In this document: one piece after another, positions 4,596-10,386 of the stretch
Numbering within the stretch: position 1 is the first letter of the stretch
Layout: each line of letters begins with the position of its first letter
Origin: Oscillospiraceae bacterium
GTDB lineage: Bacteria; Bacillota; Clostridia; Oscillospirales; Ruminococcaceae
Assembly (NCBI GenBank): GCA_022508895.1
Contig: JAFLUH010000003.1
Span: 1-64,000, forward strand
Reading direction: 5' to 3'
Length of the DNA: 64,000 bases
Notes under the pieces: model-generated
Database searches by the model: none
What the model saw: the letters and a program-made list of their open reading frames with translations, nothing else
Told to the model about the DNA's origin: nothing
Made by a program: the position numbers and the translations under genes

Positions 4596-4604
4596 CCTTA
4601 TACA

Positions 4605-4638
4605 AGGCTCCGTAGATTATACGGAGCTTTGTTTTTTA
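4605..4638 (+). terminator. Intrinsic terminator after gpmI
   Basis: GCTCCGTA-GATTA-TACGGAGC followed by TTTGTTTTTT. Confidence 0.75.
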
Positions 4639-4669: not shown

Positions 4670-4698
4670 TTGTAATTTTTAAAAAAATGTATTATAAT
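4670..4698 (+). promoter_or_regulatory. Sigma70/SigA-type promoter of the helicase-like/GHKL operon
   Basis: TTGTAA - 17 nt - TATAAT. Confidence 0.65.
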
Positions 4699-4740: not shown

Positions 4741-6639
4741 ATGGGCGAAACAGATATAAGGGGAATCGTTTTTGACAGGATAACGCTGAACGAGGTAAAC
4801 ATAGCGTTCATGCGCAAGCTGGAGACCTTCGGCTGTGCCATCGTACTGGACGAGCAGGGCAACGACAAGCACGGAAAAGCGCAGCTTGCCGTTTTGAGCG
4901 CCGTATTTGCCGCCAAGAACCCGTCCGTTCTGGTGATAACCAAAAGGAAGCTGATGTATGCGTGGTATCAGGCGCTGCTGACGGGTATAGGAGCCGACTT
5001 CAAGTTCATAACCCCCGACGAGCGCAGCATAAACCACTTTTCCCCCAAGCTCAGCAATCTCTACATCGCCAACGAGGAGGCGTGCAGCAACCCCGTTTTC
5101 GCCAAGGTCAAGGAGGCAGGCTTTGTCTGGGACCTTGTGATAGTTGACGGCGGTCTTGCCCGTACAGGCATAAACACCGATCTGATCACCGACAACTTCG
5201 ACATAAAGACCAAAAAGCTGGTGGTATTTGCGCCCTATCTGCCCCAGGAGCGTGACGCAGCGGAAAAGCTGTCCAGGATACCCGAGAAATTCCTTGAGGA
5301 CGAGGGCAGGGCAAAATACTTTTCCGAAAACTTCGCCAACGAAACGGTGCTGGACTTCTCTCTGAAAACCCCCTTCACCCGCTGTTACGGCAAGGAAAAT
5401 CTCGTCAACCCAAGCATAAGGATAGTCCCATACACCGTGCTGGACGAGGTATTGCGGGCAAAGGCGGAGCAAAGCGGCTCCTCCCTCTACAATCACGGCG
5501 GCAACATTTTCGAGGAGCTGACCCTCGATATGCGCAAGGTGTACATCGAACAGCGGTACGACGACGATGTGGTGACCAAGCTGAGAGGCTACGACGCAAA
5601 GCTGGACGCCTATCTTACCGAGCTTGACCGCCTGCTTGAGGACCCCGAAAGCCGCATAATCACCTACTTCACCTCTGAAAAGACTCTTGAATATGTCTAC
5701 AAGACCCTGAACACCTCGGTGGTGGGACTGGGCAGGATAACCGCAATAAAGAAAACGGGACTGTTCCGCATAAACAACACCCTTGAGAGCTTCAAGGCAG
5801 GCACAAAAAACGACATCCGCATAGTTCTTTCGGTAGACGACCAGTACGAGGAGTGCGGACTGATAAGCAACATCACCCACGTTATCAACTACGAGCTTCC
5901 CAGCACTCCCATGATACTGCAAAGACGCTACAAGCAGGGCGGCACCGTGGGCTTCAAGAATCCCGAATTTGTAATATTCAGGGACGAGACCGACCAGTTT
6001 GACGGCAGAATGCTTTCCCGCACGCTGGCGCTCAACATAATGGACGGCTTCAGCTTCAACATTCCCGGCAGAAATATCTACATCTACACAGAGGGACTTG
6101 AGGAAATGCTGGCGGACATAACGGTGGAGCTGCACGACGTTGAGGAGATGGAGGACGACACGGTGACGGCTCTCATTGCCAAATACAATCTGAACACCAC
6201 TCCCGACCATGCAAGGATAGCCCTTTGCTACGGCAGAGACGCAGTACGCAACGCCTTCGGCATCTCCGAGGAGGAGACTGACAGAGACGTCTTGGTGAGC
6301 CGGTTCGGCAGCAAGCTGAAGGAGCTTCGCAACGGCTGCGCATACGTTGACCTTGAGGGCGTTCTGAAGTCCAGAAATTACGACGTTGAAAACAGCAGCG
6401 ACTACACTACCGTCAGCAAGAGCCTTGCCAACCAGCCCATGGCGGTGCTGAGAGACAAGGCGAGAAAGCTCCTTAAAGGCTGCGATACGGCTGACAGCTG
6501 CATACATCTGCTGCGCAGCACCGACGAGCACATAAAGTGCTTCGTGTACTACTGCGCATGGCGTTACATGGTTGAAAGCTGCGGCTTGCAGAGCGATTAC
6601 GACGAGTTCCTGAAGAGCTTGTATGAGGAGGTGATCTGA
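4741..6639 (+). CDS. Degenerate SF2/SNF2-helicase-like protein (probable pseudo-ATPase)
   Basis: N-terminal CAIVLDEQGNDKHGKAQLAVL in place of ADEMGLGKT; LVIVDGGL in place of DEAH; C-terminal HVINYELPSTPMILQRRYKQGG resembles motif V/VI VINYDLPWNPxxxxQRxGRxxR. Confidence 0.55.
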   Translation: MGETDIRGIVFDRITLNEVNIAFMRKLETFGCAIVLDEQGNDKHGKAQLAVLSAVFAAKNPSVLVITKRKLMYAWYQALLTGIGADFKFITPDERSINHFSPKLSNLYIANEEACSNPVFAKVKEAGFVWDLVIVDGGLARTGINTDLITDNFDIKTKKLVVFAPYLPQERDAAEKLSRIPEKFLEDEGRAKYFSENFANETVLDFSLKTPFTRCYGKENLVNPSIRIVPYTVLDEVLRAKAEQSGSSLYNHGGNIFEELTLDMRKVYIEQRYDDDVVTKLRGYDAKLDAYLTELDRLLEDPESRIITYFTSEKTLEYVYKTLNTSVVGLGRITAIKKTGLFRINNTLESFKAGTKNDIRIVLSVDDQYEECGLISNITHVINYELPSTPMILQRRYKQGGTVGFKNPEFVIFRDETDQFDGRMLSRTLALNIMDGFSFNIPGRNIYIYTEGLEEMLADITVELHDVEEMEDDTVTALIAKYNLNTTPDHARIALCYGRDAVRNAFGISEEETDRDVLVSRFGSKLKELRNGCAYVDLEGVLKSRNYDVENSSDYTTVSKSLANQPMAVLRDKARKLLKGCDTADSCIHLLRSTDEHIKCFVYYCAWRYMVESCGLQSDYDEFLKSLYEEVI

Positions 6640-9600
6640 TGGCTGATAAAGAGAAAGACGTCATCAAGCTGATAGGCGATTTTTATCAGGCACGGGTCAA
6701 GAACGACGAGGAGACCAGAAAGGAGACCCTTGAAAAGCTGGAGCACCTTGTCTACACAGGGGACATAGAAGGCTCCGCCTTTGTGAAATATTACAACGAC
6801 GTGCTCAGCGGACGTCACGGCTTCAACGCCAAGCTGAACCTTGAGGACTACCCCAAGGAAAGCATAATCCGTGAGCTGTTCCAGAACGCCTTCGGCTGCC
6901 TCTATGCCACCCCCGACATCAAGGTGGTGGTGGACTTTCAGGAGGACGACACGGTAATAATCTCCTACAACGAGGTCGGCTTCACCATGGAGGACGTCCT
7001 CTACTACTTCGGCTTCGGCATCGGCAGCGGCGACGCCACCCGTGAAGGACGCTTCGGCATCGGTGCAAAGAGCGTGTTCCTCAACGTTGAGTACATTGCC
7101 GTGCGCTCCAACAACTACGGCTTCAAGATAGTAAACGAGAACAAAAGCGTCAGCATTACCGAGTTTGACCTTGGCGGAAAAATGTTCAAGGGCACAAGGA
7201 TAACCCTGAAGCTTGCTCATGAGGAATACGAGCGGATAAAGGACAACTTCCTCACCCTCACCGAGAAGAAGGGCGACTACATCAACATTGTGGAGCTTTG
7301 CTTTGCCTTCAACCGCAAAAAGGTGATGAACAGGGAGCAGGGCGACGATGAAAATCCCGACCGCACCTTCAACATTGCCGTCTCCCAGAACGGACAGGTC
7401 ACCGACGTTTACCGTATCGCCCTTAACCGCAAGAGCGAGGAGGATACCCCCAAAATACGCTTTTTCCACAACAACAAGAGCTTGGTGGACTTCCTGTACT
7501 ACGAGAACGAGGGCTTTGTATACCTTGTCCCCTATGCGGTGGCGAACACCAAGCGCAAATTCATCATTCAGCTCCTGCTTGAAAAATACAACTACTTCTC
7601 CACCTATGAGCTTACAGGCTATATCGCCAACGGCAAGGAAAAGATAGTTGACGACAAGCTGTCCGCTTTCTTCGTAAGCGTGCCCAACACCGTCATCACC
7701 AACACCCGCACGGGCATACGCTTTGATAAGGAGGTAGTGGTTTACGACGCACTGGAGCGAGACATTCCCGAGATACTGAAGATAAACAAGGACTGCTTCA
7801 TACTTGACCTGAAGCAGACAAGCGGCGGCGAAAGCTACACCTTCAGCCCCCGCTCCTACGCCTTCGAGTTCTTCAACAGCTTCTTAAAGACCAGCCGCTT
7901 TGCGGAAAAGGTGAGAGAGGCGTTTATAAACGGCATCTCGATAATGTTCCCGAACGAAAAAGAGCCTACGCCTTACGGCAATATAAGGAAGAACGGCGTC
8001 AAGAGCACCATAAGAGGCGTGTCCAAAGGCCGCCACGAGGACGGCAGCGCCTTGGAGGAGTATGTCACCCTCAGACTGCAGAGCCTGAAGGAGCGCCTTC
8101 CCCAGCAAAATGAGACGGCTGTCTATGCGGGCTACGAGTGGGCGAGCGGCAACACCGAAGAAAAGGGCAGAGTTTACCGCTACGAGGTATCTCACGGCGG
8201 TTCGGTCTACACCATCGACTCAGCCGAGAGCGGCACTCAGGATTACGAGCTGTACAGCGGCTTCCCCAGCTTGGTGGACTGCTTCCTGCCCGGCTTGCTC
8301 ACGGAGGACTGCGTCACCGACGAGGATAACTTAGAGCAGATATTCTCCCTCTTTGACGAAGCGGCAGGCGCAGATTACGCCCTGTCCATGAAGTACTACC
8401 GTATCCACTTCGACCGTGACGGCGAGAACAACTCCTTCGAGATATCCAGAATAAAGATAAACAACGTCAAAAATGCCATGGACACTCTTGAAAAGCGCTC
8501 CAAGCATTTTGTGAACAACCAGAACTACCTTGAAGTGGTATCCCTTGTGATGAACTCCTTCACCGAGGGCAAGGACACCATGACCTTCCTGCGTGAGATA
8601 AAGCAGCAGGGCGGCGTCATCTCCCTCACTCTGGACTTCAACAAGCGTTTCCGCCTTGCCGCCTACGGCAGGCAGTTCATGATACCCAGCACCGTCACCA
8701 ACACCGACCTTGTGGAGATACTGGGCGATTTCTCCCAGCTTCTTGAATCGGGACTGCTCAAGGGCAGAAAGTTCGATTTCCCCTACAGCCCCTCCAGATA
8801 TGCGTTCGATCAGGACGAGGTGGCTCATCTCCTGCTGTCCTACGCTTCGGTGCAGGAGACGAAGGCTATCATGAACAGCACCATGACGGTGAACCTGAAA
8901 TACGACGGCGTTGCCTTCCTCACCGAGGAGGACAAGGTGGTCTGCATAAAGCATTTCGGCGAGCCTGTCTCGGTGGACGAGCGCAGCAATACCAAGCGCT
9001 ATATTATCCTTCGTGACGATCTGAGCAAGATGGAATTTGCCTCCATGCTGGAGTATGTGATCGCAGGCAGCGACTTGGGCATACTGAACCGCTTCTTCAC
9101 CCGTGCCAAGGCGCCCAACCGCATAATCCCCGATCAGGTGCCGCTGAAGTACAGGCGTGCTCCCGTGCTGAGCCACGGAGAGTTCGAGTTTGCTCAGGAG
9201 CTTTACGAATCCATCAAGGGTGACAGCGAGCTTGCCAACTACAAGAGCTACTTTGCCAAGGACATCAACTCGAGGCTGTACGGCTACGGTACCTATTGCA
9301 GCAGCTGCGGCGAGAACGGACACGACATCAACGCCTACGACCTTGCCGATTTCTCGGTGGACATCATGATAGAGGGCGTGGAAAAGCACTTCAGCTTTGC
9401 AATGTACCTCTGCCGCAACCATATTTCCAACTCCGACGGCTGGCTGGTCAAGGAGCTTACCATCGGCGGCATGGATCCCTTCACATGGATGGCGGAGCTG
9501 AACGACGCTCAGGATATACCTCCCGAGTTCTTTATCGGCTCCATGAAATATGTACCCCATTTAGTGTACGACATAACCCCCGACGGTGAGCCCAGCACTG

Positions 9601-9689
9601 ACGTGGTGATCTCCGATCCGGAAACTCTCCACTTCCGCCTTACGCCTCTTATGGCTGCCAAATGGCTCAGCGACAACACTCAGAGCTGA
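6639..9689 (+). CDS. GHKL (sacsin/Hsp90-like) ATPase with C-terminal CxxC...CxxH motif
   Basis: IRELFQNAF (N-box-like), YNEVGFTMEDVLYYFGFGIGSG, REGRFGIGAKSVF (G2-like); YCSSCGENGHD...YLCRNHI; start overlaps the upstream stop (TGATG). Confidence 0.7.
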   Translation: MADKEKDVIKLIGDFYQARVKNDEETRKETLEKLEHLVYTGDIEGSAFVKYYNDVLSGRHGFNAKLNLEDYPKESIIRELFQNAFGCLYATPDIKVVVDFQEDDTVIISYNEVGFTMEDVLYYFGFGIGSGDATREGRFGIGAKSVFLNVEYIAVRSNNYGFKIVNENKSVSITEFDLGGKMFKGTRITLKLAHEEYERIKDNFLTLTEKKGDYINIVELCFAFNRKKVMNREQGDDENPDRTFNIAVSQNGQVTDVYRIALNRKSEEDTPKIRFFHNNKSLVDFLYYENEGFVYLVPYAVANTKRKFIIQLLLEKYNYFSTYELTGYIANGKEKIVDDKLSAFFVSVPNTVITNTRTGIRFDKEVVVYDALERDIPEILKINKDCFILDLKQTSGGESYTFSPRSYAFEFFNSFLKTSRFAEKVREAFINGISIMFPNEKEPTPYGNIRKNGVKSTIRGVSKGRHEDGSALEEYVTLRLQSLKERLPQQNETAVYAGYEWASGNTEEKGRVYRYEVSHGGSVYTIDSAESGTQDYELYSGFPSLVDCFLPGLLTEDCVTDEDNLEQIFSLFDEAAGADYALSMKYYRIHFDRDGENNSFEISRIKINNVKNAMDTLEKRSKHFVNNQNYLEVVSLVMNSFTEGKDTMTFLREIKQQGGVISLTLDFNKRFRLAAYGRQFMIPSTVTNTDLVEILGDFSQLLESGLLKGRKFDFPYSPSRYAFDQDEVAHLLLSYASVQETKAIMNSTMTVNLKYDGVAFLTEEDKVVCIKHFGEPVSVDERSNTKRYIILRDDLSKMEFASMLEYVIAGSDLGILNRFFTRAKAPNRIIPDQVPLKYRRAPVLSHGEFEFAQELYESIKGDSELANYKSYFAKDINSRLYGYGTYCSSCGENGHDINAYDLADFSVDIMIEGVEKHFSFAMYLCRNHISNSDGWLVKELTIGGMDPFTWMAELNDAQDIPPEFFIGSMKYVPHLVYDITPDGEPSTDVVISDPETLHFRLTPLMAAKWLSDNTQS

Positions 9690-9762: not shown

Positions 9763-9793
9763 AAAGAACTCCCAAATCGGGGGTTCTTTTTTT
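9763..9793 (+). terminator. Intrinsic terminator closing the helicase-like/GHKL operon
   Basis: AAGAACTCCC-AAATC-GGGGGTTCTTTTTTT. Confidence 0.85.
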
Positions 9794-9966: not shown

Positions 9967-10386
9967 ATGCGGGGCGAATTTAAAAGCACCCTTGACGCAA
10001 AAGGCAGAATGAATTTCCCCGTAAAGCTCCGTGAGGAGCTGGGGAAAACCTTCGTCATCTCCAAGACCATAGGCGAAAAATGCATAAAGGTGTATTCCAA
10101 GGAGGACTGGGACTCTCTTGTTGATTCCATAAGACAGATGCCTCAGGTAAAAACCGCAGGGATACAGCGTTTCCTGTTCGGCAGCGCCTTCGAGGTGGAG
10201 CCGGACAAGCAGGGCAGAGTGCTGATACCCGCCCCCCTCCGCGAATATGCCGAGCTGCAGACGGACATAGTAATCGTAGGGCTTGAAGGCAGAGCCGAGA
10301 TATGGGACAAGCAGAAGTGGGACGGCTTCAACGACGCTCTGGATATGGACGAGCTTATGGCGGCTGCAATGGAAATGGAATTGTAA
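9967..10386 (+). CDS. mraZ: Transcriptional regulator MraZ
   Basis: MRGEFKSTLDAKGRMNFPVKLREELG; position at the head of the dcw cluster. Confidence 0.96.
   Translation: MRGEFKSTLDAKGRMNFPVKLREELGKTFVISKTIGEKCIKVYSKEDWDSLVDSIRQMPQVKTAGIQRFLFGSAFEVEPDKQGRVLIPAPLREYAELQTDIVIVGLEGRAEIWDKQKWDGFNDALDMDELMAAAMEMEL

Follow-up and report, generated by a model that had tools for sequence, protein, structure and literature searches.

Bacterial genes for GHKL ATPases have been found beside genes for SF2 helicases, SWI2/SNF2 members included, in restriction-modification operons (Iyer et al. 2008, PMC2292703), and a GHKL gene paired with an SF2/SNF2 helicase gene is therefore not new as a kind. Here we describe such a pair from an Oscillospiraceae bacterium, encoded in a 64 000-nucleotide stretch of contig JAFLUH010000003.1 (hereafter the window). 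The original prediction, made from the sequence, was of an undescribed two-component machine. A conserved unit without a named family is indeed present, whereas the pairing of GHKL protein and helicase was already known from the work cited above. No curated family covers either protein, and no bacterial sacsin–SNF2 pair was found described in the open-access literature; the passages located in the papers on HEPN/sacsin and CoCoNuT systems mention none. On balance, we consider it probable that the products of both genes form an obligate two-subunit housekeeping machine, core and vertically inherited, in which protein 2 is a live ATPase and protein 1 a dead one.

The gene pair and its inheritance

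Two large open reading frames on the forward strand, overlapping at TGATG as first noted, make up the locus: gene 1 (4741–6639), encoding a RapA-type SWI2/SNF2 pseudo-ATPase of 632 aa, and gene 2 (6639–9689), encoding a predicted sacsin/Hsp90-type GHKL ATPase of 1016 aa. They form a unit of their own, with gpmI upstream and mraZ–rsmH downstream (mraZ at 9967). The upstream boundary is marked by a terminator-like hairpin 3' of gpmI (4602–4632, forward strand, a 13-pair stem and then a T run), after which lies a sigma-70-type promoter-like site (TTGTAA-17-TATAAT, 4670–4698, forward strand) that is a consensus match only. The downstream boundary is a second terminator-like hairpin 3' of gene 2 (9763–9789, forward strand, an 11-pair stem and then a T run). 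The promoter and both terminators had been predicted, and sites resembling them were located accordingly. Promoter-like and terminator-like sites show no excess over shuffled sequences (4 versus 3.6 and 6 versus 6.1, respectively), so only strength and place speak for these signals; in strength the two hairpins rank near the top of those detected, and they stand where they would be expected.

The same arrangement recurs in other genomes. In the 68 loci with both genes, the two share a strand and the gap between them has a median of 1 bp. A named collection gave 70 loci, most of them bearing the label Ruminiclostridium sp. or Oscillospiraceae MAG (ruminant, rabbit and other samples); in 26 of them the pair stands directly before mraZ–rsmH–ftsI, the synteny that had been proposed as a sign of housekeeping, and in many it also follows pgk–tpiA–gpmI. 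Other named loci have the pair elsewhere with no recurrent neighbour, its genes still adjacent. The dcw-side position is seen on several deep branches of the tree, which suggests that this was the ancestral placement.

Co-occurrence of the two genes, a further expectation of the original prediction, holds almost throughout the genus: each of its 36 genomes carries at least one of the two, 34 carry both, and gene 1 and gene 2 are each present in 35. Beyond the genus, a search of 149 genomes from the family, 391 from the class and 399 from the phylum detected gene 2 only in two sister genera, both within the family. Among 295 order genomes, full-length matches to gene 1 occur only in the genus and a single sister genus, the remaining matches in that set being partial and limited to the helicase domain. 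In one genome (G016) the locus is cut by a contig end. In another (G006, 86% complete), gene 1 was not found in the assembly and gene 2 is a fragment (L095, G006:C86, 6487–6981) starting from about residue 544, with the ATPase half missing. This fragment begins inside the contig, behind its own upstream region and at a contig end, and may represent either a misassembly or a real loss of the ATPase half.

The two proteins have diverged in step. Their pairwise identities correlate at r = 0.97, against 0.83–0.87 in comparisons with RsmH or FtsI, and their trees have 17 of 20 splits in common. Against the RsmH+FtsI tree, 17 of 20 splits match for protein 2 and 16 of 20 for protein 1 (maximum of 2 in 500 label permutations). 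Ka/Ks, taken from close pairs only as it saturates at larger distance, is 0.01–0.08 for protein 2, a level as low as that of RsmH and FtsI, and 0.04–0.13 for protein 1, values comparable with RsmH, FtsI and MraZ. At long range the pair diverges faster than the markers (median identity 0.43 and 0.29, versus 0.65 and 0.53). The pair is thus inherited vertically like housekeeping genes and is under strong purifying selection. Near-universal, vertical, co-evolving and constrained, it bears the signature of a cellular function and not that of a mobile defence gene. Gene order and co-evolution further suggest that proteins 1 and 2 interact. In well-sampled gut bacteria it is uncommon to find a core gene pair outside curated families that is under selection comparable with, or stronger than, the selection acting on cell-division proteins.

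HtpG, MutL, Mfd and SMC are each present separately in the genus, indicating that the pair adds a function; the idea that it replaces a missing factor was rejected because all four are there.

Of the competing explanations, the strongest is that the pair is a phage-defence or restriction-type module fixed in the lineage, comprising a GHKL ATPase and an SNF2-type sensor in the manner of the operons that join MORC/paraMORC to an SF2 helicase, or of DISARM DrmD. It draws on the known neighbourhood of GHKL and SF2/SNF2 genes in restriction-modification operons (PMC2292703), and on PADLOC, where the best matches are DrmD for protein 1 (E 1.3e-5) and TmtA for protein 2 (E 4.6e-8). We nevertheless regard it as unlikely, given that nearly every genome of the genus has the pair and no signal of gain, loss or transfer is seen, where a mobile anti-phage system would show patchy distribution and horizontal transfer, and given that purifying selection on it is as strong as on FtsI and RsmH. 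In addition, no nuclease, methylase or other defence gene recurred in the neighbour survey, nor was the pair seen in a mobile or defence-island context. A conserved third partner was likewise absent among neighbours outside gpmI and the dcw genes. The viral-contig scan returned no relative of the pair, and the sole match in the plasmid search was HtpG. The initial guess had been left between defence, surveillance and a chaperone-like role; with 26 of 70 loci beside dcw and no mobile context, defence becomes its less likely branch.

One GenBank scaffold labelled 'Bacteriophage sp.' (MT835670.1, locus L210; human faeces, unverified) carries a full-length match at 42% identity. Over 14 kb it shares 98.5% identity with the chromosome of a genus member (G014), and so seems to be a piece of bacterial chromosome wrongly labelled as phage. 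A phage origin of the pair was rejected, as the viral contigs hold no relative, this scaffold is apparently chromosomal and the plasmid match is HtpG.

Protein 2, a predicted GHKL ATPase

The structural model of protein 2 is of moderate quality (pLDDT 78.7, pTM 0.55), with some loops below 50 pLDDT. Its best Foldseek matches belong to the Hsp90 family (TRAP1 at E 1.4e-10, GRP94 and Hsp90), followed by GyrB and MutL. When normalised to the whole protein, TM-scores reach only about 0.2, and the fold is therefore assigned only in the N-terminal and middle regions; no relative was found for the C-terminal half. Among the BFVD viral models, phage RIIA proteins, in which the Hsp90-like GHKL region is also present, account for many of the top-ranking matches in fold. 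Curated models from Pfam, NCBIfam and PADLOC match weakly, namely P_loop_sacsin (NF047352, E 2e-5, 24.9 bits, under the cut-off of 50), HtpG and TmtA, while PF25794 matches 10 of 25 family members, also weakly. No J, HEPN or repeat domains were detected.

By its sequence, protein 2 is a sacsin/Hsp90-type GHKL protein in which the N-box Glu and Asn and the G2 box are intact, and it is predicted to be an ATPase. The N-box (ELFQN, residues 79–83) and the G2 box (EGRFGIGAKSVF, residues 136–147) are both present, as anticipated; E79 and N83 of the former and E136-G137-R138-F139-G140 of the latter are invariant in all 68 sequences that cover these residues. The G1-like box reads Y110-N-E-x-G, with the canonical adenine-binding Asp replaced by Tyr110, and a DxGxG box with Asp is missing from all family members (YNExG). 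This replacement makes ATP hydrolysis by protein 2 less than certain. A bacterial sacsin-like comparator (L180), however, has His in place of the same Asp (EHNG), so the pocket of protein 2 looks sacsin-type and not decayed; such a pocket may read adenine differently from that of Hsp90. In the middle domain, Arg357 is invariant (71/71) and precedes a long helix in the secondary structure of the model, which makes it a candidate for the catalytic Arg proposed for Hsp90 and sacsin, also positioned before a long helix (PMC9880540). At the C-terminus a CxxC...CxxH motif had been suggested. Its three Cys residues (887, 890 and 925) are conserved without exception in the 71 sequences, whereas the His at position 928 occurs in only 9 and is Asp in the other 62.

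The fold matches, with TRAP1, GRP94 and Hsp90 ranking above GyrB and MutL, favour a second alternative in which protein 2 would mature or protect one client, with protein 1 as its adaptor, perhaps on behalf of the division and envelope genes nearby; the frequent position of the pair beside mraZ–rsmH–ftsL–ftsI agrees with this. We find such a client-specific chaperone rather improbable, since several clades keep the pair intact away from dcw, an SNF2 scaffold would be an odd client adaptor and HtpG is already present.

Protein 1, a decayed SNF2-type helicase

Two RecA-like domains with the SNF2 fold are present in protein 1, as judged from its AlphaFold model (pLDDT 87.6, pTM 0.88) and from fold and profile searches. 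In Foldseek it matches Chd1 (E 5.9e-12) and RapA (E 2.8e-11), as well as ISW1, SNF2h and CSB, and together with the TRAP1 match of protein 2 this agrees with the helicase and GHKL folds of the original prediction. A profile of 22 protein 1 relatives searched against the PDB places RapA (E 4.4e-8) ahead of all other helicases, and in the alignment RapA motif I (DEVGLGKT) and motif II (WDLLVVDEAHH) face decayed motifs. Matches to curated models in Pfam, NCBIfam and PADLOC are weak (Helicase_C and DrmD). Motif I of protein 1 (residues 37–44) reads DEQGNDKH and the motif II region (from residue 130) reads WDLVIVDGG, both without catalytic residues (GNDKH and VDGG, respectively), while the motif VI stretch is present within motif V/VI (about residues 379–404). 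The suspected loss of catalytic residues at the Walker A and Walker B/DEAH positions, beside a retained motif V/VI-like stretch, is thereby confirmed.

Protein 1 is a RapA-type SWI2/SNF2 fold whose ATPase motifs have decayed across the whole family. Among the 67 protein 1 sequences covering both motifs, with motif I counted at fixed columns, GxGK[TS] is kept in 13, the DE of motif II in six and both in none. One change on the tree suffices to account for the six DE-keeping sequences, and the motif I state switches many times (14, an approximate figure owing to a loose middle class). In the 22-row alignment, W130-D131-L132, G253-G254-N255, N383-Y384-E385 and W607 are invariant, which indicates that the fold and particular surfaces have been retained. 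The intact fold, and the motif I or DE residues surviving in some members, could be taken to mean that protein 1 remains active as an SNF2 ATPase of an unusual kind, working with altered motifs; this is very improbable, as no sequence holds both and the Walker and DE residues were lost separately, in different clades.

Two side observations concern particular relatives. In sequences of the window's own clade, a GK occurs shortly downstream of the motif I columns. In two deep-branching loci (L151, 1005–2333; L152, 7634–8977) gene 1 is shortened to about 445 aa with an altered motif VI, alongside a full-length gene 2; further shrinkage of the pseudo-helicase seems to be under way there.

A proposed division of labour and its relation to known systems

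Decay in protein 1 set against conservation in protein 2 suggests that protein 2 acts as the motor, with protein 1 as a scaffold. We postulate that protein 2 would be the only motor of the housekeeping machine, opening and closing under ATP as Hsp90 or MutL does. Protein 1, presumably derived from a RapA-like translocase and no longer hydrolysing ATP, could dock the GHKL clamp onto double-stranded DNA or onto a DNA-bound complex, for example stalled RNA polymerase, and the docked machine might then remodel or release its substrate. Action on DNA-bound complexes is a guess, chosen as the most economical candidate. We put forward only tentatively a lineage-specific remodeller of such complexes, with a RapA-derived dead SNF2 docking arm and a live Hsp90/sacsin-type GHKL motor. 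More doubtful still is DNA or RNA polymerase as the target, which is much less certain than the two-subunit arrangement.

Should this division of labour be true, an SNF2 protein has been kept as a scaffold while a neighbouring Hsp90-like ATPase supplies the energy, and the pair may mark a path by which GHKL/helicase pairs of the defence type turn into housekeeping machinery. Descent by domestication from a restriction-type GHKL/SF2 pair would account for the likeness to defence genes as well as for the housekeeping behaviour seen today. GHKL and helicase gene pairs should not be labelled as defence by association.

Compared with described systems, protein 2 has in common with sacsin-type proteins the N-box (ELLQNA), a G1 box in which Asp is absent and N follows, and a GRFGVG-type G2 box, besides the weak NF047352 and PF25794 matches and the candidate catalytic Arg ahead of a long helix (PMC9880540); it differs in scoring under the curated cut-offs and in having its own C-terminal half with the Cys motif. 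HtpG and TRAP1 provide the best fold matches for its N-terminal and middle regions, but the C-terminal half is unrelated to HtpG by sequence, and HtpG is encoded separately in the same genomes. Protein 1 resembles RapA (HepA) in that its profile matches both RecA-like domains (motif I–II and motif V/VI). It is shorter, however (632 versus 968 aa), the match starting from RapA residue about 175 with the N-terminal region missing; it is also found in one lineage only, has a GHKL gene as partner and has decayed ATPase motifs, whereas an active SWI2/SNF2 protein would hold motifs I and II intact together. The likeness to DrmD of DISARM lies in the C-terminal half of the helicase and is slight in the NCBIfam model (NF038317, E 6e-4, 18 bits, cut-off 610). 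The pair is not mobile, and DISARM partners do not recur nearby: drmA, drmB, drmC and the methylase are not among the recurrent neighbours, which are only pgk/tpiA/gpmI and the dcw genes. Lastly, the MORC/paraMORC operons (PMC2292703) likewise place a GHKL ATPase gene beside an SNF2-family gene. Our pair departs from them in being Hsp90/sacsin-like, without a recurrent nuclease or methylase and with a helicase predicted to be inactive, and in belonging to the vertically inherited core of its lineage and not to the mobile gene pool.
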